A stretch of 25,332 nucleotides of DNA, taken from a virus. The DNA is taken from the IMG/VR virus record IMGVR_UViG_3300021197_000145, positions 1 to 25,332 of that record, one strand, 5' to 3'. Below are positions 5,784 through 25,332 of the stretch, piece by piece (the stretch's first letter is position 1; every line of letters begins with the position of its first letter). The notes under the pieces were generated by a model that did not search any database, was not told the origin of the DNA, and worked only from the letters and a program-made list of their open reading frames with translations. The translations under genes and the position numbers were made by a program.

Positions 5784-6509
5784 ATGTTACAAACATTTTA
5801 CATAGATCACATGGGTACAGACTTATCTGTAGCTAATGCAGCACGAGTAAGTTTTGGTAAACGTAGTGAGATGGATACGAGTGATGTGTGGGGTCCACCT
5901 AAGTTGAAAGACAAGGACGCAAAGCTTATACGTTACCTTGCCAAGCACAAACACATCAGCCCTTTCGGGCATTGCTTTGCCAGCTTTCACGTTAAAGCAC
6001 CTGTGTTCGTGGCACGTCAGCTAGTCAAGCATAAGTTCCTACGTTGGAATGAAATCAGCCGTAGGTATGTGGATAGTAAGCCTGAGTTTTATCAGCCAAC
6101 AGAATGGCGTGGACGTAGTGCTGACAAGAAACAAGGCTCAAGTAGTGAAGGCGTTAAAATGTTACACTGGATTATTGAAGACCCTGAGCTTTCCGTTGAG
6201 GGACATACACATTACGATAATGTAAGTGACAACCCTAATAGATGGTCATCATATGTAAATAAACAGGCAATAGACCTTTATAACGCTATGATTAACAGTG
6301 ATGTATGCCCAGAGCAAGCACGTATGGTACTGCCACAGAGCATGGTCACTGAGTGGTACTGGTCAGGTAGCTTAGATGCATTTGCAGACATGTGTAACCT
6401 ACGCTGTAAGCCTGACACACAGTACGAGACACAGGTTGTAGCTGGACACATTGACACAGAGATGGCTAAGCTGTTCCCTGTATCATGGATGGCATTGAGG
6501 GAGAATTGA
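5784..6509 (+). CDS. thyX: flavin-dependent thymidylate synthase ThyX
   Basis: ThyX makes dTMP from dUMP using methylene-tetrahydrofolate and FAD/NADPH, so phage DNA synthesis need not rely on host ThyA. The 241-residue length is normal. The family signature RHR-x7-S appears as KHK-x7-S: K82-H83-K84 ... N89-E90-I-S92-R-R94-Y95, within RQLVKHKFLRWNEISRRYVD. It is preceded by the usual LAKHKHISPFGHCFASFHVK segment and followed by ARMVLPQSMVTEWYWSGS and NLRCKPDTQYETQVVA. Lysines replacing both signature arginines are unusual and may change flavin or dUMP contacts. ATG 5784 follows the previous stop directly. The C-terminus KLFPVSWMALREN is repeated just downstream. With RNR and MazG it forms a nucleotide-supply set. 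Confidence 0.92.
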   Translation: MLQTFYIDHMGTDLSVANAARVSFGKRSEMDTSDVWGPPKLKDKDAKLIRYLAKHKHISPFGHCFASFHVKAPVFVARQLVKHKFLRWNEISRRYVDSKPEFYQPTEWRGRSADKKQGSSSEGVKMLHWIIEDPELSVEGHTHYDNVSDNPNRWSSYVNKQAIDLYNAMINSDVCPEQARMVLPQSMVTEWYWSGSLDAFADMCNLRCKPDTQYETQVVAGHIDTEMAKLFPVSWMALREN

Positions 6510-6571
6510 TGGAGAAACTATTCCCTGTGTCATGGACGGCACTAGCTAAAATAGCTAAAAGGAGGCACTAA
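6509..6571 (+). pseudogene. duplicated and diverged 3' tail of thyX (20-codon remnant)
   Basis: Directly at the thyX stop (TGA 6507-6509) a new ATG (6509) opens a 20-codon frame beginning MEKLFPVSWTAL and ending in TAA 6569-6571. It repeats the last part of ThyX (KLFPVSWMAL). Bases 6468-6497 and 6515-6544 match at 24 of 30 positions. Of ten codons, four of the differing five encode the same amino acid; only ATG/ACG changes it. This looks like the end of a second, diverged thyX allele left by recombination. Whether the 20-residue peptide is made is unknown, although AAAAGGAGG (6556-6564) inside it serves the next gene. Confidence 0.65.
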
Positions 6572-6714
6572 TGACAAACGTAGATATTTTCTTGGATAAC
6601 ATGAAACGTTTTACACAAGAACACCAAAGCACATGGGAAGAAAGAAAGATACAAAAACTAGAGCAGCAGGTTGCTAAACTAAAAGAGAAAGTTAAGGAGA
6701 AAGACGATGGTTGA
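6571..6714 (+). CDS. small coiled-coil protein, 47 aa
   Basis: ATG 6571 follows a very strong ribosome site, AAAAGGAGG (6556-6564), and shares its first base with the stop of the thyX-tail remnant. The product begins MTNVDIFLDNMKRF and ends in a charged heptad-like helix (KIQKLEQQVAKLKEKVKEK), a probable coiled coil giving dimers or trimers. It overlaps the next gene by 8 bp. No family is recognised. Confidence 0.6.
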   Translation: MTNVDIFLDNMKRFTQEHQSTWEERKIQKLEQQVAKLKEKVKEKDDG

Positions 6715-6817
6715 AGTAATTGGAATTGCAATTTTATCTGGTATGATTGGCATGATGCTTGGCTTGAAGATAGGTTGGCGTGATGCCAAGCGCCTCTATG
6801 ATCCCTACCTTGTATAG
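6707..6817 (+). CDS. tiny membrane protein, 36 aa
   Basis: ATG 6707 lies within the 3' end of the coiled-coil gene, behind AAGGAG (6694-6699), and ends in TAG 6815-6817. The N-terminal 22 residues form a Gly/Met/Ile-rich hydrophobic helix (VIGIAILSGMIGMMLGLKIG) followed by a short basic and polar tail. It is a probable single-span inner-membrane protein of unknown role. Confidence 0.5.
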   Translation: MVEVIGIAILSGMIGMMLGLKIGWRDAKRLYDPYLV

Positions 6818-6824
6818 GGATAGA

Positions 6825-7067
6825 ATGATGGGTAGATATGCAATTCAGATTGAGATAGAAAATGGTGAGTACACTTTAGTACGAAAAGAAAACCCTTGGA
6901 CTTATGATTCAGAAGTTCTTTTATTTGAAACAAGAGCAGAAGCAGAGGATGAATTAACAAGATGGAGCACAGGTATTGTTGTAGATTACAAACGATACAT
7001 AAGGCCCATGACTAAGGAAGAACGTACTAGATCTACTCAAAGGAATAGAACGTTTGTTACTAAGTGA
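6825..7067 (+). CDS. conserved small phage protein, 80 aa
   Basis: The frame is open from 6780 (GTG), but that part overlaps the membrane protein gene. ATG 6825 or 6828, behind TAGGGATAG, is the better start. The product begins MMGRYAIQIEIENGEYTLVR, contains ENPWTYDSEVLLFETRAEAE (residues about 22-41) and ends basic. It has the beta-beta-alpha look of small phage proteins with 'F.T..EAE.E...W' helices that I recall only as hypothetical. Function unknown. Confidence 0.65.
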   Translation: MMGRYAIQIEIENGEYTLVRKENPWTYDSEVLLFETRAEAEDELTRWSTGIVVDYKRYIRPMTKEERTRSTQRNRTFVTK

Positions 7068-7194
7068 GTACATACCGTACATAATTTCTTTATCCGTTGT
7101 CGTAGGTAGTCTTGCATTCATTCCTCTTTGGCTGCTATACTTCGGTTTCAGAATTATAAAAACCTTTATCAAAGGAAAAACAAATGTCAGATAA
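7054..7194 (+). CDS. possible TTG-started membrane protein, 46 aa
   Basis: The gap between the previous gene and the primase holds an open frame from TTG 7054 (behind AAAGGAATAG) to TAA 7192-7194, overlapping the previous gene by 14 bp and the primase gene by 11 bp. It encodes a hydrophobic helix (IISLSVVVGSLAFIPLWLLY) followed by a basic tail, as in the other tiny membrane proteins nearby. The rare start codon keeps confidence low. Confidence 0.4.
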   Translation: MLLSEYIPYIISLSVVVGSLAFIPLWLLYFGFRIIKTFIKGKTNVR

Positions 7195-8782
7195 TCCACA
7201 TTCACCATGCCCTTATGAAGACTGTAGTTCTTCAGATGCATTCAACTGGAACGATGATGGCTACGGTCATTGTCATTCATGCAGCAGGGCATACCCTATG
7301 AAAAACATGCCAGCAACTTTTGACTGGGTTAAACAGGAGTACCCCTTGAAAGAACGTATCCAACCACAAAACATACAAGTCACTGGTGTTAAGTATGATG
7401 GCATCAGAGGTATTGATGCTGATGTATGCAAACTTTATGGCATACAAATTCAGACAGGCCCGAATGGTGAGGATGTGCGGTATGCATACAAGTACCCACA
7501 CACTATTAAATATCGTATGTGTAATGACAAATCAAAGTCATGGGTCAAAGATCGTGGATTAGGTATGAACCACCTGTTTGGCCCTGAGTTCAATGCTGGT
7601 ACAGGTAAACGCATCTACCTTACAGAAGGTGAGTTCGATGCAGCCAGCTTGTATCAGATTCTTGGCAAGACATTTCCTGTAAAGTCTTTACCTTCTGCAT
7701 CTATTGGTGAAAAGTTTATCAAGCACAATCTAAAATACTTATCTTCATTCAAAGAGATTGTGTATGCAGGTGAGCTTGATGATGCTGGACGTAGGGCCGC
7801 TGATAAATTGTATCAGGCATTTCCTGAGAAGTTTTACTATGTGCCTATGACAGAGTGCAAGGACGCTAATGAGTTCCTTGAAACAGGCAAGCATGAGAAG
7901 CTTATGTGGGCAGCAAGATCACCACAAAGGTACACACCAGAGAACTTCTTTTGTTCTGATGCTGATGTAGAAGCAGCTATTAAGAACGAGAATCCATATG
8001 AGTATGTACCAACAGGTCACACTGGTTTGGATGAAAAGATTCGTGGTATGGTTAAGGGTGGATTGACATTCATCAAAGCCCCTCGTGGTACTGGTAAGAC
8101 TGAGGTGATTAGGTACTTTGAAACAGGCTTACTTAACAATGGTGATACATCAGTAGCTATGCTACACATGGAAGAAATGAAGTCTACCACTTATCGTGCT
8201 ATGGCTACATACCATCTGGGTGTAAACGTTAGGACTAAAGAAGATGCTGCTAATAACAACGTGTCAGAACAGAACGTTATTGAGGCAGCTAAGATTGCAA
8301 CCAAGGGTGAAAATACAATCATCTTTGAAATGATGTCACACGATGATCCACTCAAGCTACTCGACTATGTACGTCTAGCTGTTACAGTCTATGGTGCTGG
8401 CTATATATTCATTGACCATGTACAACGCTTGGCCTACCTGTCTAATTCGGGTGTAGATGGTGCTACTAGTACACTCACTACACTAGGTTCACGTATGGCT
8501 CAGTTAGCTAAGGAGCTAAACATTGGTGTTATATTTATCTCTCAGGTTAATGATGATGGACGCACCAAGTATGCTGCTTCACTTGAGGAAGAGGCAATCA
8601 TATGTATCAAGCTAGAACGTACAGCAGAAAGTGAGGACGAAGTAGAACAGAACACAACAACCTTTATCGTAGATAAGAACAGACCTTTTGCTAAGTTAGG
8701 TAGGGCAGGATCAGTGTACTATGATCCAACAACAACCATACTAAGAGAGGATTTGTTCACACAAGAATCACAGGTGGCATAA
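7184..8782 (+). CDS. T7 gp4-like primase-helicase
   Basis: A 532-residue bifunctional replication protein that unwinds DNA at the fork and lays RNA primers. The N-terminal zinc ribbon has C9, C14, C30 and C33. The TOPRIM primase core has the Glu motif YLTEGEFDAASL (E148) and the Asp motif GELDDAGRRA (D199, D200). The C-terminal RecA-like helicase has Walker A PRGTGKTEV (K305), Walker B YIFIDHVQRL (D411) and the sensor-like VIFISQVND. Length and order match T7 gp4 (566 aa). The start follows AAAGGAAAAAC. The stop overlaps the DNA polymerase start (TAATG), so the two replication enzymes are translationally coupled, as expected for partners at the fork. Confidence 0.93.
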   Translation: MSDNPHSPCPYEDCSSSDAFNWNDDGYGHCHSCSRAYPMKNMPATFDWVKQEYPLKERIQPQNIQVTGVKYDGIRGIDADVCKLYGIQIQTGPNGEDVRYAYKYPHTIKYRMCNDKSKSWVKDRGLGMNHLFGPEFNAGTGKRIYLTEGEFDAASLYQILGKTFPVKSLPSASIGEKFIKHNLKYLSSFKEIVYAGELDDAGRRAADKLYQAFPEKFYYVPMTECKDANEFLETGKHEKLMWAARSPQRYTPENFFCSDADVEAAIKNENPYEYVPTGHTGLDEKIRGMVKGGLTFIKAPRGTGKTEVIRYFETGLLNNGDTSVAMLHMEEMKSTTYRAMATYHLGVNVRTKEDAANNNVSEQNVIEAAKIATKGENTIIFEMMSHDDPLKLLDYVRLAVTVYGAGYIFIDHVQRLAYLSNSGVDGATSTLTTLGSRMAQLAKELNIGVIFISQVNDDGRTKYAASLEEEAIICIKLERTAESEDEVEQNTTTFIVDKNRPFAKLGRAGSVYYDPTTTILREDLFTQESQVA

Positions 8783-16693: not shown

Positions 16694-16871
16694 GAAGTAC
16701 GTACAAAGTAAACGTACTCCCAAAGACACTAAGCCTTTGACTGCAAGACGTTACCTAGCTGGGCAAGCCCTAGCTGGGTTACTTGTTAATAGTAGAGGTG
16801 CACAAATGATAGATATAAAGAAGGCTGCATATGAGTGGGCAGACTACATGCTAGATGACGATACTAGTTAA
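16665..16871 (+). CDS. conserved small phage protein, 68 aa
   Basis: ATG 16665 lies within the 3' end of the RMF-like gene with only a weak GAG ribosome site. The N-terminus is basic (KLETEAKKYVQSKRTP), followed by a helix-rich body with TARRYLAGQALAGLLVN and KKAAYEWADYMLDD. I recall this 'A..AL.GLL.N ... A...AD.ML' pattern from small uncharacterised proteins of many phages. It is the last rightward gene, and its last 8 bp overlap the end of the convergent structural gene. Confidence 0.7.
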   Translation: MKTKLETEAKKYVQSKRTPKDTKPLTARRYLAGQALAGLLVNSRGAQMIDIKKAAYEWADYMLDDDTS

Positions 16872-19800
16872 TACCTTTTGGATTCATAGCTTGTGTTCTA
16901 AACATTAATATTTGACGTCTTTCTAATTCATTTGCAACGCTTTCAGCGTCAGCAATATAGTCTTGAGATGTGCTATATTTACCGTTGGTCTGAGCAGAAG
17001 CTGCCTCATTAAATTTTTCTGCTCCATATTCTGCACGTTTAAGATAGTAGACATTTCTTAAATAACCTGCAGCTTTAACTGGATTTTTTGCTAACATATT
17101 AGACAACATATCTGTCGCAAGATTAACTTCTCTTTTAATTTCGTTGTTAATAAAAGCTTTAAAATATTCTCTTTTTTCATCTATGTCTGTTATTTCATCA
17201 TAGACTTTTTGAGTTGCTTTTGCACGAGTAGGTACTTGTTCTGATCTAAAGTTTTCAAACTTTAAGTGTAAGTTTTGAGACAGTCTTGCACGAACAAAGT
17301 AATCAATGACAGGATTATCAACTCTACTGCTACCATACAGTTGATACTCTTTTAAACCTAGTTTATTTATTTCTTTTTCTATTTCTGTTTTAGGTGGTGA
17401 AGAAGACAAGCCAGTAAAAGTTTTCTTTAGTGGATTCATTTTACCAATAGCATTAGGATTAAAGATACCGTAGTAAGGTACGTCATATCCTTTTGCAGAA
17501 CCTTCCTGCGAATACTGAAGCTTTGTACCATCTAGCATTGCAGCATAGTCTGGTAAGAATCTAGTTGCCCTACTTGTAAAAGTTCCTTGAGGTGTTTCAA
17601 AAGAACTAACATCAGTTCCCTTAGCTAAGTCTCTTGTGTATGGAGCACCAGCAGATTCATAAGTTGTTTGACCTTTAATATCTTTAGCCAACTGAAAAGG
17701 TATCGGGTAGGTAAACGTAGATACAATGTTACCAGCTATTTTTTCTAGCTCTTCTGTTACTCCATCCTCTTCCCATGATTTATAAAGTTCTCTAAGTCCA
17801 GATATATCTGCACCCATGTCATTTAATCCACCCATAACAGATCCAACTTCACCAAGCATTCCAAAATCTCCTTGATTCATACGGCCAAGGTTATTGTTGT
17901 ATCTGTACCATTGATCACCAATAAATATTGGTGCTATTATAAAACCTAATGACGATGAAATATCTTCATCACCTTTAATCTCATTTTCAAGAGACTTGTA
18001 ATCTACTTTACCTTCTTTACTTTTAGCAAGTACATATCCAAGTAGTATTAGACTACCCCCAGTTACTTGTCTTACCCTTCTATCCTCTAAAGATTTATAA
18101 GGATCACCAGTAACATACTTTATTCTTCCCTTACCCACATTTACTTTTTCTAGTTTGTTAGTAATTTCACCTAATATTGGGGTATAGTCTGCAATCATTT
18201 CAATATGATTAGCTACATATCTAGGAAAAGGTACGCCAAAAACTCCTGACATTACAAAAGGAAGTTTTTTATTTACATCGGAAGCCATTCTAGCACCTGC
18301 CCCAAAAATAGACTCATCTCCCATATATGTTCTTTGCATTGTAAATCTGTTAGCATCATCTAACGCTTTATCCACAATGCTTTTATCTAGTTTATCTAGT
18401 TTACCCTTATTAATAATAAAATCTTTTACATTTGTACCCAGTTCTTTATTATTTAATGTACGTAACTGCCTGTCTAAACTTCCAAAGAATGCAGCCTCTT
18501 TAAACACAGTATCTGTAGCAGTGTTTAATATGTTTACAAATCTACCTGCCTTAGCAAAAGCGGATTGACTTTGACCAGACATCTCAGATCTCATAGTCTC
18601 ATGAAATGTTCTGGCGTAAGAGTCAGGCATCTCTAGCTCTAGCATTTCTCTTGCCACTTGTGCAGTTGCACTATCCATAGACATGCCACGAAGTGTGGCA
18701 GTCATATTACGAACAGTGTTACCTAGTCCACTACCTTCTTGACGAGTAATTGTTCTATACATTCCTCTGTAGAACTCATCTGACATTTCAACCGCAGCTA
18801 ATAAAGCAGTAGAAGTAACGTTACGTGCTGTAGTTGCTGGCTGAGATGTCATAAATGCAATACGCATTTGATCCATCTCTTGTAGGGTGTAGTAAGTTCC
18901 TTTAATTGCCTTACCAGTGGCACTACTAAAAGCAGAATTTTTAACTATGTTAGCAGTTATTTCCGCAGCTTTTAAATCATCTATACTAGATAAGCCTCTT
19001 GAAGATAATTCACTTAAATTTGCATTTAAACTTTTAAGTGCAGAGTCTTCAGGTATTCTTTGGCTTGTAGCTCTACCTGCAAGTTTAGCTATCTGAGAAG
19101 CTTCAGCAAGTTTTTTACCTGCCTCAGAAAGATCAGCTAAATAAATTAAAGAAAACTGTTCTTTAGTTAAATCATATTTTTCCATTAACTCTGGTACAAT
19201 TTTCGTTACATCTATATCTCCACCATCTATTAACGAAGATATCTTAGACGTAATTCTTTCATTTGGTTTTAAATCAATTGTCTCTGCTAACTCTATTGTT
19301 GCTGCGGTAATAGATCTAAGAGTAGTTAAATCTAAACCAGAACTAAGAGAAGATTCGACAGAAGTATCAAGCAAAGATCGTTTAAGTGCTTCACCCTGCT
19401 TAACTTTATCTGGATCTAGTGCATCTTTTAATACACCCTTAGTCCTGTCACCTTTCCTAGCAGCTAAGGTAGCTTCCATATCTAATGTTCTATTAACTGC
19501 GAAGTCACTTCTTTCAGCACTTGCATTTTCTAAAGTTTCTTTAGACTTAGCATTAGCTTTTTTAGCATTAGCTGCATTAGTTTTTTGTTGTTGACTAATT
19601 AACTCTTCAACATTAATTGCTTTTTTCTTTGTTAGCAACGCACCTAAGCTACCACCTACAGCACCCAGAGTAGCACTAACTGCTGCATCTTTAGCTAGAT
19701 CTGATGTCGTGTAGTCGTAGCCTTCTGTGTAAGCTCCCATATCCGACAGGTCTTCACGAGCCTCTCCTGCTGCACCAGCGGTAGCTGCACCAATAGCACC

Positions 19801-20328
19801 CTCTGTTACAGCACCAGTGGCAGCACCTTTAATCATTACATTCTTAGTAAAGTAATCTTTTAATTGTTTACGTACTAGTATTTGAGTACCTTTTGTAGCT
19901 GCTTTAGCTGCTGCCTTAGATAGACCAAAGCTACCCATACCTAAAAATGTAGATGGAGATTTAATTATTGCCTCTGCATAGTCAGCTGTAGCAGTATCTC
20001 TCCACCCAGCAGTTTCTGTTTTACCTACAGACTCTACATTATCCCAAGCTTGAATAAGATTACCAAAGGATTGCTTACCTAAAATGTTTGCACCCTTATC
20101 TCTTACATAGTTTAAATCTTTTAATGCAGTTGCATCATGTGCAGATTGAAATCGCATATGTTCAGCAAACTTTTGAGCAAGCTTTTCAAAACCTTGTTCT
20201 TTCATTTCTGCTTTGGACATATTATATCTGCCACCAGAAAAAAATCTGACAAGATCCACTTTAAAATCATCTTCTTTAACAAGATCCATAAAGTTTTTTT
20301 CTTCTATGTTTTCTAAGTAAGAGGTCAC
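16864..20328 (-). CDS. very large putative internal virion (ejection) protein, 1154 aa
   Basis: The start is GTG (20326-20328), about six bases after AAAGGA, and the stop of the upstream gene lies inside that ribosome site. The product is long, mostly helical and charged. A Gly/Ala-rich hydrophobic stretch (residues about 165-235, for example GAIGAATAGAAGEA and SATLGAVGGSLGALL) could insert into a membrane. A central conserved-looking segment is MTSQPATTARN (near residue 490), and a later weakly hydrophobic one is GSLILLGYVLAKS. Position after a transglycosylase gene and size (T7 gp16 is 1318 aa) suggest a DNA-ejection protein injected from the capsid. No enzyme motif was found. Its 3' end overlaps the opposing gene by 8 bp. 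Confidence 0.72.
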   Translation of the reverse strand: MTSYLENIEEKNFMDLVKEDDFKVDLVRFFSGGRYNMSKAEMKEQGFEKLAQKFAEHMRFQSAHDATALKDLNYVRDKGANILGKQSFGNLIQAWDNVESVGKTETAGWRDTATADYAEAIIKSPSTFLGMGSFGLSKAAAKAATKGTQILVRKQLKDYFTKNVMIKGAATGAVTEGAIGAATAGAAGEAREDLSDMGAYTEGYDYTTSDLAKDAAVSATLGAVGGSLGALLTKKKAINVEELISQQQKTNAANAKKANAKSKETLENASAERSDFAVNRTLDMEATLAARKGDRTKGVLKDALDPDKVKQGEALKRSLLDTSVESSLSSGLDLTTLRSITAATIELAETIDLKPNERITSKISSLIDGGDIDVTKIVPELMEKYDLTKEQFSLIYLADLSEAGKKLAEASQIAKLAGRATSQRIPEDSALKSLNANLSELSSRGLSSIDDLKAAEITANIVKNSAFSSATGKAIKGTYYTLQEMDQMRIAFMTSQPATTARNVTSTALLAAVEMSDEFYRGMYRTITRQEGSGLGNTVRNMTATLRGMSMDSATAQVAREMLELEMPDSYARTFHETMRSEMSGQSQSAFAKAGRFVNILNTATDTVFKEAAFFGSLDRQLRTLNNKELGTNVKDFIINKGKLDKLDKSIVDKALDDANRFTMQRTYMGDESIFGAGARMASDVNKKLPFVMSGVFGVPFPRYVANHIEMIADYTPILGEITNKLEKVNVGKGRIKYVTGDPYKSLEDRRVRQVTGGSLILLGYVLAKSKEGKVDYKSLENEIKGDEDISSSLGFIIAPIFIGDQWYRYNNNLGRMNQGDFGMLGEVGSVMGGLNDMGADISGLRELYKSWEEDGVTEELEKIAGNIVSTFTYPIPFQLAKDIKGQTTYESAGAPYTRDLAKGTDVSSFETPQGTFTSRATRFLPDYAAMLDGTKLQYSQEGSAKGYDVPYYGIFNPNAIGKMNPLKKTFTGLSSSPPKTEIEKEINKLGLKEYQLYGSSRVDNPVIDYFVRARLSQNLHLKFENFRSEQVPTRAKATQKVYDEITDIDEKREYFKAFINNEIKREVNLATDMLSNMLAKNPVKAAGYLRNVYYLKRAEYGAEKFNEAASAQTNGKYSTSQDYIADAESVANELERRQILMFRTQAMNPKGIN

Positions 20329-20338
20329 AACAAGTCCT

Positions 20339-21277
20339 TTATGAGTTTAGTGCGTTATCTAATATATCATCTTCATCTTCAAAAGGGTTATCTGATGTAT
20401 CATCTTTATTTTTAAAAGGGTTATCTATACGGGGAGAAGGTGTGGGTATAGGATCTAAAGAAACTACGACATCAGCAAGTTGATTACCCCCACTTCGTAT
20501 TTGATCACTAACATTATTAATAACATCACTTAAAATATCTAAAGGATTTCCAGAGTAAGTTGTATCAGAGTAAGCTGTTCGATAAACATCTTGAAGTTCT
20601 CTTATTATTCTATTCCCATTATCTGGGTCATTCCAAACCCATCTATTTGTATCAGATTGAAAGTCTCCTATAATACCATTTAATGAACTGTTAATAAGTT
20701 TATTTACGGTGTTCATTTCTGTGGGTGGTATATTTATAGCACTTCTTAATGGTACATTAGCTGAGGGTATTCTAATACTACTATCATCAGAAGGTATTTG
20801 ACCATATATTTTTTTAATATCCTCTAGCGTTTGATCTGGATCAAATGCAGCCATTGCAAGCTGCATTCCTAAATCTGCAGGATCAAAGTCTGTTCCTAAT
20901 AATAAACTATTGGCTAAGATTTTAGATTTAACTTCTTCTGGATAACTAGATAAAACAGTTTCACTTATAGCCTTAATATTATCTTTGTTTATTTCTGTAG
21001 GTTTTAATTTACTAAGGTGATTTAAAGCTATATCTAAATCTCCACTTGCATCCATTACAACTGCAGCTTCTTTAGAAATACCAAAGTTACCAGCTAATTG
21101 TATCTTAGACATTCTTTCTGAACGTCTTTTTCTAATAGATTCTAGTTTTTCTACACCACTTTCCATAAGATATTTTCTGCTAGTAAGAGACATCTCTTTA
21201 GTGAATGCATCTCTAGCATCTTTTATTTCCATATCTCTTTCAGCATATCCTGCCGCAACTTGTTTCCAATTAAACAT
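20339..21277 (-). CDS. hypothetical virion protein, 312 aa
   Basis: It begins MFNWKQVAAGYAERDMEIKD and overlaps the end of the upstream gene by 8 bp. The first 110 residues are helical and charged (GVEKLESIRKRRSERMSKIQ). The middle has IPSANVPLRSAINIPPTEMN and TNRWVWNDPDNGNRIIRELQ. The acidic C-terminus repeats D-N-P-F (IDNPFKNKDDTSDNPFEDED). Position between the transglycosylase and the giant ejection protein suggests a structural or ejection component. The family is not recognised. Confidence 0.65.
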   Translation of the reverse strand: MFNWKQVAAGYAERDMEIKDARDAFTKEMSLTSRKYLMESGVEKLESIRKRRSERMSKIQLAGNFGISKEAAVVMDASGDLDIALNHLSKLKPTEINKDNIKAISETVLSSYPEEVKSKILANSLLLGTDFDPADLGMQLAMAAFDPDQTLEDIKKIYGQIPSDDSSIRIPSANVPLRSAINIPPTEMNTVNKLINSSLNGIIGDFQSDTNRWVWNDPDNGNRIIRELQDVYRTAYSDTTYSGNPLDILSDVINNVSDQIRSGGNQLADVVVSLDPIPTPSPRIDNPFKNKDDTSDNPFEDEDDILDNALNS

Positions 21278-21794
21278 CAGAACTTCCTCTACTCATTAAA
21301 CCTTTTGGTTTTTGATCTACAACTTTTTCTGATACAGGTTTCTCTTTAATAGCCTCAGACATTTTTTGTACTAATTCATAACCAGAATCTTGCTCATCTT
21401 CAGGGGTTTCTTTTAAAGATTTTTTAAGAAGAAGGTCTACCTTACTATTTATCTTACCTTCTTCATCTTCAGAAAAGAACTCTTTAAAATCAATATTAGA
21501 ACTTTCTGCAATGTTTACTACATATTCATGTAGCACTGGTGCGACAAGCATACTTACATCAATAGTATGAAGACCAGTCATTACAGCACTGGTTAAAAAT
21601 ATTTCAACAAAAGTATTAACAGGCATACCTGACTCAAGTAAAAGTAGGATATTATCTAAAGATTTTTCTTCAGTTAGTTTGTTTAAATGAAAGCCAACAA
21701 CCTCATCTACATCTACCATTTCTGGGGGTTTTTCCCAAGGGTAGTTTTTAGGTTCTTTTGTTAAAGACTGTCCGGGTATAGGTGCCTCAAACAT
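21270..21794 (-). CDS. hypothetical structural protein, 174 aa
   Basis: It starts in a TAATG overlap with the stop of the transglycosylase gene, behind a strong AGGAGAAATA. The N-terminus is proline-rich: EAPIPGQSLTKEPKNYPWEK, a motif (APIPGQSLT ... PWE.PP) I recall from conserved structural proteins of marine tailed phages. A helical middle (residues about 35-110, with ILLLLESGMPVNTFVEIFL) and an acidic/basic C-terminal tail follow. The function is unknown. Its constant placement among virion genes suggests a minor virion or assembly protein. Confidence 0.68.
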   Translation of the reverse strand: MFEAPIPGQSLTKEPKNYPWEKPPEMVDVDEVVGFHLNKLTEEKSLDNILLLLESGMPVNTFVEIFLTSAVMTGLHTIDVSMLVAPVLHEYVVNIAESSNIDFKEFFSEDEEGKINSKVDLLLKKSLKETPEDEQDSGYELVQKMSEAIKEKPVSEKVVDQKPKGLMSRGSSDV

Positions 21795-22606
21795 TATTTA
21801 TTTCTCCTGTAATACGCATCAATACTTTCTTTAGTTATGTTACCAGTCTCTTTATCTCTCCAACCCGGATTTTTATTCCAAGCATCTGAACCTTTTTTGT
21901 AAATAATTGTGTTAGGAGAGGCGTTTCTTTTCCCCGGTGCAGCTTGAAGTAATCCTAAACTATAAGTACCATCGTACTTCCATTTTTTTAAATAGTTTTT
22001 ATAAACTAATAACTGTGAAGATGGTGGCATATCTCTAATTTCTTCTGGGGTAAACCCTAATTCAGCAGCAACTTTAGGTATAAATTGAAAAAGACCAGAT
22101 GCATTTGTATCTTCATTCCTAGCTTTTGGATTAAAGTTAGATTCACCATCCATAATTCTAAGTAGTTCATACTTACTTATACTTGGATACTCTTGTAAAA
22201 TAGAATCAAAATTTTCTTTAAAGGTAGGGTCGCTAAACAATTCTTTAGACTGTTCATCCAAACTAGGATCTAGACCACCCTCATCTCTAGATCTAGGACG
22301 AATCTCCCCTAAGTCTTTTTTAGAGTTCAGTTTAGAGACTTCAGCTATTGCTTCTTCCCTTGCATTATACAGACTTTCTAACCAATTGTCTATTTTTTTA
22401 TTAGGTCTTTCATTTTTAATTTCTTCAAAACCTTCTTGTAAAGCAGCATCCATATTTTTTTGCATAAGTCCTGTAGATATTTCAGACCGTTCTTTTATAC
22501 CAGATGTACGAACTCTACGTTTGTCTTGCTTCATTTTAGCAAGTCTATAGGCTGCTCTTTTTTGTTCAATAACTTTAGGATTGTATAGTTGTTTTGTATT
22601 TTGCAT
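21794..22606 (-). CDS. virion lytic transglycosylase (SLT domain)
   Basis: The 270-residue protein has a basic, helical N-terminal region (residues 1-130, with RLAKMKQDKRRVRT) and a C-terminal soluble-lytic-transglycosylase domain (about 138-250). The catalytic Glu is E155 in MDGESNFNPKARN. It is followed by NASGLFQFIPKVAAELGF and YKNYLKKWKYDGTYSLGLLQ, as in goose-type and Slt lysozyme folds. It would cleave peptidoglycan glycan strands locally during DNA entry, the role of the T7 gp16 N-terminal domain. Here the enzyme is a separate polypeptide. ATG 22604-22606 follows AGGTGA. Confidence 0.87.
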   Translation of the reverse strand: MQNTKQLYNPKVIEQKRAAYRLAKMKQDKRRVRTSGIKERSEISTGLMQKNMDAALQEGFEEIKNERPNKKIDNWLESLYNAREEAIAEVSKLNSKKDLGEIRPRSRDEGGLDPSLDEQSKELFSDPTFKENFDSILQEYPSISKYELLRIMDGESNFNPKARNEDTNASGLFQFIPKVAAELGFTPEEIRDMPPSSQLLVYKNYLKKWKYDGTYSLGLLQAAPGKRNASPNTIIYKKGSDAWNKNPGWRDKETGNITKESIDAYYRRNK

Positions 22607-22613
22607 TTTTCAC

Positions 22614-25332
22614 CTATGTAAAAATAATATCTCTGACCCAGCTACCAATTGTTGAATCAGCTTCCATATCTGCCTTTAATTTTGCAGCGTCTAAAGTTGC
22701 ATCAGCAGAGATTTTTTGCAGAACAACATTGTTAATTCTATCTTGCTCACTTTCAGAGGCTGTAAAAGCAAAGTCCATAAGGTCACGTTCACGTTGCCAT
22801 ACCTCGTCCATTGTTGTAGAAGTAAAAGCATTAGCAGCCGCTGCATCTACAGCATTAGCTTCATTCTGAGCAGCTGTATTTATTGTAGCTACATTTTGTT
22901 TCCACTGCGCATTAGCTTGAGCTATAACAAGAGAATTAGAAGCATTAAATTGTTCTCGATTATTTTTAATATTAGCATTAAATTCTAGTGCAGCATTTTC
23001 TGCGTTGACATTAGCTTGTTCTATAGCATTAGTTTGAGCAGCATTAAACTGATTGTTTTGTTGTGCAAGGTTATCATAAAACTGATTAACTTGATTTTGA
23101 GATGTTGCATTAAATTGTTTAGCAGCATTCTCTGCAGCTTGATCAGAAAACAATGCTTGTTGTGTAGCCTGTGCTTTAAATACTGCAATTTGTTGCTCGT
23201 TACTCAGATTAGTCATGTCTTTTTGTAGGAACGATTTAGCATTTTGTACTGCAGCTTGCTGCCGATTGTTTAGATTTGTGATATCCATATTAGCAACGGT
23301 TGCAGCATTTTGTAAAGTAGCGGCTTGAGTTGCATTTAACTCAGCTAAACCTATGGATGACATTAACTTAGAGTTATGCAATGCATTTTGTTGTTCTGCA
23401 GTAAACTCTATGTTAGCAGCTTCTGAATATCTTGCAGCATTACCGATAGATACTTGTTGATCATTAGAAAGAACTTGACCTTGCAGTGCGGCTGCAGCAT
23501 TGGCACTATTAATATACGCACTTTGTTCAGAAGATAGTTCAGCTAAGTTAGTCTGCAAAGCATTTGAATTATCTTGCATTGCTGCTTGCTGTTTATTATT
23601 TAAGTTAATATTAGCTGCTTCTGCGTATCTAGCTGCTGCAGCAATATTAGTTTGCTGTCTATTACTTAAGTTTTGCCCTTGCAAAGTAGCACGAATTTGT
23701 GCGTTTGCCACTTCAGCAGCTTGACGATTGGACAAGTTTTGTGTTTGCAAACTAAAAGCATTAACACTTTTTTGTAGGTTAGCTTTTTGCTGATTGTCTA
23801 AGTTTTGTAATTGCAAGCCTTGTTGTGCAGCAGCGTTAGCAATAGCAACTTGCTGACGATTATTTAGGTTTTGCATACCCATTTGTGCAAAAGTGTTAGC
23901 ATCTTGTTGAGCAATAGGTAACGCAGATTCCATAGCTGCCTGTAGGATAGCCGCACCTGCCATAGAGGATGCACCTAGACCCCGTGAGGACATAGCTGCA
24001 TTAGCTGCACGAATAGCCCCTGCAGACCATGCAGGTGTACCATCGTCAAACTGTTTCATTAGCTTACCAAGCTGACCTTCTACTGTAGCAAGTGAATCTA
24101 CATCACCTTGTGCAGCCTTAGCTAATGTACCATTATCTACAGAGAAGCTTGCCATTTTTGCAGCAATAGGGATAGCATCTTTGTCTAACCCTGTGTCAGT
24201 CATAGCTTTAGCTTGCGCCATGTCCTCTTCAGCAATAAGCTGTGGAGTAGGAAGCTCATTAGGTTGAACTACATGTGCTGCTGCTATTGCATCTAGTAAA
24301 GCAGAAGACTTTGCTACTTTTGTTTGTATAGCTCTTAGGTTTTTACCTTTTGCTTCTGCTAGTTGTTGTTTAGTAACTTCTAGGTCTACTTTTTCATTGA
24401 CTTTTTGGATACGATCTGCAGCTACTTTTAATGCCTCATCAGCATAAGCACCCTCTGATAGCTCCCCTTGTTCCCCTTCAAATGTAACACCTTTAGAAAA
24501 CTCATCTAGTGTTGCAGCTTCAACTTTATCTAACTCTTTTTTAGCTTTACCTGAAACAGTAGTAGCATCATATGTTGCAGCATCTGCTTTTTCTACACCT
24601 TCTGATGTAGTAACTACTCCTTTTACAGGATCATACGAAATATCACCTTTCAATTGACCTGTATCTTCAGGTATAATTGTACCAGCAGTCTCAGGGTCTA
24701 TAGTATCTACTTTAGTTTTAGTAACTAGAGAAGCAGGATCTTTAGCCTTCTCTATCATTATATCTGAGATTGTTTTTTGTGACTCCTTAAATGTAGGTTC
24801 AAGTTGTTTAATACGAGCAGAAAGATCTGTTACTGTTTTTTCTTTTTCTTCTACAAGCCCTTTTAAATAAGGATCATTTGGATTAGCCTCTGCCTGTGCT
24901 TTTAGCCTTTGTAATTCTAGCTCTGCTTGTTTATAGTTACTTTGAGCTTTTTTGTATTCTTCTTCAATGTTTTCAATGTCGCCAGTTACACCACCAGTAG
25001 TCTCTTCTGAAATGTATTTACGATATGCTTCTTCTTGGTTTTTAAACTGTTGATTTTTTTCTTCAAAACCACTCTCTTTTAATTTAGATATAACAGGAGT
25101 AATTTCTTCAGCAAGTGTTTTCTTAGCCTTATCTAAGTCGTACCTATTAACAACCGTAGATGTACCATCTTCAAAAGTAAATATCCAATTTTCTCTGCCC
25201 CCAGATACTTCATATTTATCTGGATTAGGAACTAATTTTTCTGTACCATCAAGACCTATTAACTTGTCAAACATTTCATCACTAGGTAACTTACCTGATT
25301 CCAAAAGCATATCAATGCCTTTTTGAGAATGA
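22614..25332 (-). CDS. giant helical repeat protein of the virion, N-terminus beyond the window
   Basis: The frame stays open to the right edge (seven further codons, HSQKGID, before the first internal Met at 25310), so the start lies outside and Met 25310 need not be the start. Counting from that Met, 898 residues are visible. Residues 1-480 are charged and helical (for example KQAELELQRLKAQAEANPND), with coiled-coil-like segments. Residues 481-722 are eleven consecutive 22-residue repeats with N-L-x-N-x-Q-Q starts. Residues about 730-810 carry Q-F-N-A repeats at 22- and 11-residue steps. A non-repeat C-terminus ends WVRDIIFT. Long Gln/Asn/Ala-rich helical rods of this type are likely structural, either an internal ejection protein or a tail component. 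No enzyme domain was found. Confidence 0.75.
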   Translation of the reverse strand, partial: HSQKGIDMLLESGKLPSDEMFDKLIGLDGTEKLVPNPDKYEVSGGRENWIFTFEDGTSTVVNRYDLDKAKKTLAEEITPVISKLKESGFEEKNQQFKNQEEAYRKYISEETTGGVTGDIENIEEEYKKAQSNYKQAELELQRLKAQAEANPNDPYLKGLVEEKEKTVTDLSARIKQLEPTFKESQKTISDIMIEKAKDPASLVTKTKVDTIDPETAGTIIPEDTGQLKGDISYDPVKGVVTTSEGVEKADAATYDATTVSGKAKKELDKVEAATLDEFSKGVTFEGEQGELSEGAYADEALKVAADRIQKVNEKVDLEVTKQQLAEAKGKNLRAIQTKVAKSSALLDAIAAAHVVQPNELPTPQLIAEEDMAQAKAMTDTGLDKDAIPIAAKMASFSVDNGTLAKAAQGDVDSLATVEGQLGKLMKQFDDGTPAWSAGAIRAANAAMSSRGLGASSMAGAAILQAAMESALPIAQQDANTFAQMGMQNLNNRQQVAIANAAAQQGLQLQNLDNQQKANLQKSVNAFSLQTQNLSNRQAAEVANAQIRATLQGQNLSNRQQTNIAAAARYAEAANINLNNKQQAAMQDNSNALQTNLAELSSEQSAYINSANAAAALQGQVLSNDQQVSIGNAARYSEAANIEFTAEQQNALHNSKLMSSIGLAELNATQAATLQNAATVANMDITNLNNRQQAAVQNAKSFLQKDMTNLSNEQQIAVFKAQATQQALFSDQAAENAAKQFNATSQNQVNQFYDNLAQQNNQFNAAQTNAIEQANVNAENAALEFNANIKNNREQFNASNSLVIAQANAQWKQNVATINTAAQNEANAVDAAAANAFTSTTMDEVWQRERDLMDFAFTASESEQDRINNVVLQKISADATLDAAKLKADMEADSTIGSWVRDIIFT
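23145..23870 (-). repeat. eleven tandem 66-bp units encoding 22-residue repeats
   Basis: Exactly 726 bp encode eleven gap-free units of 22 residues, each opening with a form of N-L-(S/N/D)-N-x-Q-Q. The DNA units have diverged, so the repeat is clear at protein level only. The period 22 equals two 11-residue (hendecad) turns, which fits a right-handed coiled coil. Units 3-4-5 resemble units 6-7-8, giving a 66-residue super-period. Confidence 0.85.

Follow-up and report, generated by a model that had tools for sequence, protein, structure and literature searches.

Tape-measure proteins of siphophages are helical rods that carry a variable number of 11-residue units and have a history of unit duplication and loss (PMC3271669; TP901-1, PMC5099701). 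The same 11-residue period is found in hendecad (undecad) coiled coils, for example in parts of NadA3 (PMC6191539). Among short-tailed phages, T7 is in need of a channel extension and encodes the core/ejection proteins gp14, gp15 and gp16, predicted to be all-helical, in a cassette of few proteins with a transglycosylase (PMC8954989, PMC11784390), and the P22 proteins gp7, gp20 and gp16 are encoded after the head and tail genes. Here, we describe a repeat protein from phages of the HMO-2011 type, a group reported to rank with the most abundant viruses of the sea (PMC9038755).

The window, that is, the whole stretch of DNA that was analysed (25,332 nucleotides), is a linear virus record of 25 kb. 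Its gene set is HMO-2011-like and includes an integrase, a primase-helicase, a family A DNA polymerase, a B12-dependent ribonucleotide reductase and an endonuclease VII. The gene for the repeat protein and the parts of its product were as follows.

22614..25331, minus strand: repeat protein gene, 905 aa, the last minus-strand gene, with its 5' end beyond the window edge
23907..24035, minus strand: conserved head of the array, aa 433-475, P-A-W...R-G-L-x-x-S-S...P-I-A, with P38, G56 and A79 invariant
23151..23876, minus strand: array 1, aa 486-727, eleven 22-residue units or 22 hendecads, without insertion or deletion
23115..23150, minus strand: joint between the arrays, aa 728-739, within a 32-residue spacing that is invariant in 190 of 190 relatives
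22821..23114, minus strand: array 2, aa 740-837, 11-residue units with F-N-A marks and the same Asn register as array 1
22737..22820, minus strand: C-terminal conserved segment, aa 838-865, W-Q-x-x-R-D...D-R, always 38 residues away from array 2

The first-pass annotation had placed eleven perfect 22-residue repeats at 23145-23870. Eleven consecutive units without an indel were recovered, with a self-identity of 66 at lag 22, where shuffling predicts 24.9 (z 9.4), and a z of 5.9 against shuffles at lag 44. The array is the same one, but the earlier coordinates are two residues out of phase, and the repeats are perfect in unit length and not in sequence, the mean pairwise identity between units being 30% (range 9-68%). 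Tandem Repeats Finder detected no DNA repeat at array 1 in the window, and a recent DNA tandem repeat was thus ruled out as the origin of the array. The 242 residues do divide into 22-mers, but at lag 11 the periodicity continues past their border to approximately aa 837. Both halves of each 22-mer share the signature h-A-N-h-x-x-x-Q-Q-h-x (more fully, hydrophobic, A/Q, N, L/A, three variable positions, Q, Q, A/M and a variable position), which bears out the proposal that 22 residues represent two hendecads. The basic repeat unit is 11 rather than 22 residues. Among distinct relatives, register position 3 is Asn in 65% of cases for array 1 and 78% for array 2, and because the Asn position within the 11 stays constant across both arrays we refer to it as an Asn ladder. 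In the variable N-terminal part of the protein, a charged stretch (aa 121-200, ~24732-24971) is probably a coiled coil; its peak period of 3.69 was reached in 36 of 500 shuffles.

Homologues of the repeat protein were collected by tblastn against phage records and by scans of viral contigs. They were found in HMO-2011, the Roseobacter CRP phages, the Pelagibacter HTVC phages, phages of Rhizobium and Sinorhizobium, Vibrio phage CHOED, Aeromonas phage MQM1, Pseudoalteromonas phage Slicky01 and approximately 170 environmental contigs, where they are almost always annotated as hypothetical proteins. The close relatives used are ~1000-1300 aa long, and distant ones are as short as 459 aa. A genome scan gave one match, on a 7.9 kb MAG contig that is probably a binned phage contig. 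The window protein has the PAW-PIA head, the 22/11-residue arrays, the F-N-A array, the WQxxRD end and the fixed spacing of the family and, judged by this signature, belongs to the HMO-2011-type repeat proteins (phage1322_25). The HMO-2011 protein itself (L015) has a C-terminal extension of its own (CWVAREVYG...), which is missing from the other aligned relatives. Searches of Pfam, PHROGs and PDB sequences with the repeat protein gave nothing specific. Foldseek with the protein model found no match in the PDB, and against viral models it found mainly unnamed phage proteins, including sequence relatives of the repeat protein.

Array lengths were then compared as distances between conserved anchors, which were located by profile HMMs. 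In 188 relatives array 1 fell into 12 classes of 38, 60, 82, 104, 115, 126, 181, 192, 236 (the window), 247, 302 and 346 aa, and a truncated relative with its protein end off the contig (L011) had the largest array seen, 566 aa or 26 units. All 188 lengths, as well as that of L011, leave a remainder of 5 when divided by 11. Counted in units, the classes are 2, 3, 4, 5, 5.5, 6, 8.5, 9, 11, 11.5, 14 and 16, plus the 26; three classes thus have a half unit, and half steps of 11 residues were present in 15 relatives. Array 2 measured 56, 67, 89, 100 or 111 aa, with a remainder of 1 in 188 of 189 relatives. The sole off-register array 2 (L121, 90 aa) has one residue extra (FNTQNSNLAIEQ versus FNTQNSNLVEQ), which may be a genuine insertion of one residue or an artefact of assembly. 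The spacing from array 2 to the C-terminal segment was 38 aa in all 188 relatives compared. As controls in the same proteins, the stretch from Q25 to P38 upstream was 13, 14, 18 or 19 residues long, and the C-terminal tails had lengths in all residue classes modulo 11.

If lengths were free, the probability of thirteen classes being congruent modulo 11 would be ~11^-12 by simple arithmetic. Taken alone this is the weaker argument, because recombination between tandem units by itself yields whole-unit steps. The stronger arguments for a register are that off-register changes are absent, that half units are tolerated and that the joints are rigid. No off-register change was seen in array 1 or in the joints in ~190 proteins, some of which are only 25-40% identical to the window protein. 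On an approximate tree (FastTree of the flank columns), the parsimony count of length changes was ~19 for array 1 and ~7 for array 2. In L011 the array (~6200-8031) grew by duplication of a block of five units (110 aa). The units at the array ends appear orthologous across phages, which indicates that array length changes mainly internally.

Copy number was constant only within clades; in that of the window, for example, each of 11 loci has 11 units. Isolated relatives that were measured have 2 to 9 units, and uncultivated ctYwJ313 has 11, like the window. Among phages of a single host strain, FZCC0040, CRP-3, CRP-212 and CRP-235 have 3 units and CRP-207 has 5.5 (units of CRP-3 and CRP-207 were counted manually in their sequences). 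Array length is therefore not set by the host envelope. The first-pass annotation had proposed that either the length or the register of the rod is functionally fixed, that the rod could span the periplasm, and that units of other lengths in relatives would speak against it. Strict conservation of register was confirmed, and the only other units found were the 11-residue half units, which are consistent with hendecads. Comparison of repeat numbers across relatives upheld the 11-residue step but not a constant number of units, which ranged from 2 to 26. A fixed length was contradicted by the FZCC0040 phages, the same variation left the span of the periplasm unsupported, and a fixed length tuned to the periplasm was ruled out. 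The register of the array is fixed and its length is variable, with steps of almost only exactly 11 aa.

Array 1 (34,531 residues over the family) contains 0.0% Pro, Cys, His and Trp and 1.6% Gly; it is rich in Ala, Gln, Leu and Met and has few beta-branched residues. AlphaFold2 gave all-alpha models of the window protein (pLDDT 55) and of a relative with 6 units, whose alignment has few gaps (pLDDT 60). In both models the helix is interrupted at or close to the inter-array joint. The absence of Pro and these two low-confidence models agree with the helical rod proposed earlier, and the arrays are probably alpha-helical. A right-handed coiled coil, the form that the rod had been given, was not borne out. 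The 3.67-residue hydrophobic stripe was not significant in the family-averaged pattern of array 1 (permutation p ~0.75), and array 2 showed a weak stripe at positions 2, 6 and 10 (p 0.09 for large residues). In array 1 the hydrophobic variance lies at periods of 2.2-2.75 and not at 3.67, and the hydrophobic positions 1, 4 and 10 fall on two sides of an 11/3 helix. Helices that are hydrophobic on two sides would lend themselves to packing in a sheet or barrel. At 0.149 nm per residue, a straight helix across both arrays would measure ~56 nm in the window protein and ~105 nm in L011, the latter assuming the shortest common array 2 since the end of L011 lies off the contig. Reported heads measure 65-71 nm (PMC10507051, PMC10410586) and the MQM1 tail is 9.2 nm (PMC10410586); thus, at least in its long forms the array has to bend or fold back on itself, unless it is located outside the head.

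The genes that follow the repeat gene were these.

21794..22606, minus strand: lytic transglycosylase (SLT), 270 aa, the next gene
21270..21794, minus strand: cassette protein of 174 aa, conserved, with an A-P-I-P-G-x-S-L-T motif
20339..21277, minus strand: cassette protein of 312 aa, fast evolving
16864..20328, minus strand: cassette protein of 1154 aa, whose Slicky01 counterpart matches PHROG families of virion structural proteins

The cassette order is kept in the group, with the repeat protein followed by a hydrolase or other small gene, a protein of ~170 aa, one of 300-930 aa and a last one of ~800-1900 aa. The slot after the repeat gene holds an SLT/Phage_lysozyme2 gene in CRP-13 (L029, 5160-6038) and a Hydrolase_2 gene in CRP-603 (L032, 5183-6124). 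The CRP-603 cell wall hydrolase is unrelated to the SLT family, and non-homologous hydrolases therefore share one slot; no hydrolase was detected in this slot in CRP-2, CRP-9 and Slicky01. In HTVC115P a gene annotated as a toxin-activating lysine-acyltransferase (gp46; L017, 7447-7896) lies directly after the repeat gene, and acyltransferase annotations are also found near it in CRP-738 and CRP-235. A 33-bp tandem repeat in the window (20354-20427, 2.2 copies, 85%) gives the 312 aa protein a C-terminal acidic repeat of 11 residues. The repeat gene is very probably a virion gene.

Our favoured explanation, which we hold tentatively, is that the repeat protein is a virion protein of HMO-2011-type podophages that acts as a helical pilot or ejection protein, equivalent in podophages to the tape-measure rod of long-tailed phages. 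Its C-terminal half would form a long, nearly uninterrupted alpha-helical rod of 11-residue (three-turn) steps, with two arrays on one common Asn register. The protein would be stored in the particle, exit ahead of the DNA or alongside it, and contribute to forming or lengthening an envelope channel, jointly with the large virion protein and the hydrolase of peptidoglycan that are encoded next to it. The 11-residue step would keep the helix face with the Asn ladder aligned toward partners or neighbouring copies, and the number of steps would be free to change rather than matched to the host envelope. Quantisation in 11 residues, invariant joints, the absence of proline and growth by block duplication are observed properties of the protein. 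The pilot role is suggested by the SLT neighbour, the varied hydrolases in the slot, the virion structural match and the conserved gene order, and also by the F-x10-F marks, which resemble those in tape-measure proteins (PMC3271669). It is weakened by the low pLDDT of the models (55-60) and the lack of a significant 3.67-residue stripe in array 1, by the length of a straight 26-unit rod (~105 nm), which is too long for the head, by the lack of homology to T7 and P22 ejection proteins, and by an S74-type trimeric chaperone ending, typical of external fibres, in four relatives. A literature search found no virion proteomics or structure of the repeat protein, which also counts against it.

The chaperone ending raises the alternative of an external trimeric adhesion fibre or whisker with the arrays as its coiled-coil shaft, which we regard as somewhat unlikely. 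Pfam detected a Peptidase_S74 domain at the C-terminus of three of 27 aligned relatives (CRP-738, L025; CRP-212, L030; CRP-235, L031), CRP-3 (L195) has a matching ending by eye, and such endings are confined to this subgroup. The ICA domain is described as homotrimeric (PMC6972908), and the length of a shaft could vary freely. However, Pfam found no such domain at the C-terminus of the window protein, most relatives lack it as well, and the S74 part of CRP-738 has its best PHROG match in a family called DNA ejection protein. HMO-2011 also has separate fibre genes annotated elsewhere, and, opposite to the usual pattern of tail fibres, the repeat protein is conserved in its C-terminal half and variable in its N-terminal half.

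An unlikely variant is a true ruler, in which the number of steps in a hendecad rod with an Asn ladder would set the height of an internal core or the length of an ejected channel. The protein would then be the podophage counterpart of a tape measure, having evolved by the same duplication of units. Less probable again is a component of an internal core or scaffold, packed around the portal, that remains inside the head and whose array length measures nothing. In its favour, the probable helices are low in charge and rich in Ala, Gln and Asn, and the gene sits in a morphogenesis block, but the peptidoglycan hydrolase genes nearby suggest passage through the envelope.

We consider it very improbable that recombination alone explains the whole-unit changes, leaving the quantisation structurally meaningless and the region perhaps a flexible linker. 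Tandem units do recombine in register, the 5-unit block of L011 was duplicated and model confidence is low, but array 1 and the joints lack any off-register change in ~190 proteins whose neighbouring regions vary freely, half-unit steps exist and proline is excluded. A parallel beta-helix with 22-residue coils is hardly credible, since, despite the Asn ladder, the 22-residue period and the hydrophobic variance of array 1 at periods of 2.2-2.75, half-coil steps of 11 residues occur in 15 relatives, Gly and Pro are nearly absent, beta-branched residues are few among the Ala, Gln, Leu and Met, and both models are all-alpha.

That unit length is constant within one genome does not imply a constant total length. 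The natural series from 2 to 26 units represents a ready-made set of length variants whose ends and joints are constant. Isolates with 2 (MQM1, CHOED), 3 (CRP-3), 4 (Slicky01), 5.5 (CRP-207), 6 (HMO-2011) and 9 units (HTVC115P) exist, and whether array length measures core height, channel length or nothing becomes addressable with them.

When set against the known systems, the pilot protein proposed here resembles P22 gp7, gp20 and gp16 in its similar genome place after head and tail genes, and HMO-2011 has a P22-type coat annotation, but there is no sequence homology to the P22 ejection proteins. Like gp14, gp15 and gp16 of T7, it is predicted to be all-helical, belongs to a short-tailed phage and is encoded in a small cassette with a peptidoglycan hydrolase, in the window the SLT protein. 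Unlike in T7, the transglycosylase is a separate gene, and no long repeat arrays are noted for the T7 ejection proteins in the sections available of their descriptions (PMC8954989, PMC11784390). With single-sequence templates, which have low power, hhalign gave probabilities <1% for the repeat protein against T7 gp14 and gp15 and P22 gp7 and gp20, and likewise for the 1154 aa neighbour against T7 or P22 gp16. The 11-residue period is shared with hendecad coiled coils such as those of NadA3, but here the arrays are far longer and array 1 has no significant 3.67-residue stripe. No homology to tape-measure proteins was detected, and their pattern 1, with seven [FW] marks spaced by 11 (PMC3271669), was not reached, the longest run of F-x10-F marks in array 2 being 6, in 76 proteins. 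Furthermore, these are short-tailed phages with no long tail to measure (9.2 nm in MQM1, PMC10410586), and the marks of array 1 are Asn and Gln and not F or W. What the two have in common is a variable number of 11-residue units with a history of duplication and loss, in array 2 F marks every 11 residues, and probably also a helical rod. In its behaviour, the repeat array is closest to the tape-measure repeats of long-tailed phages.
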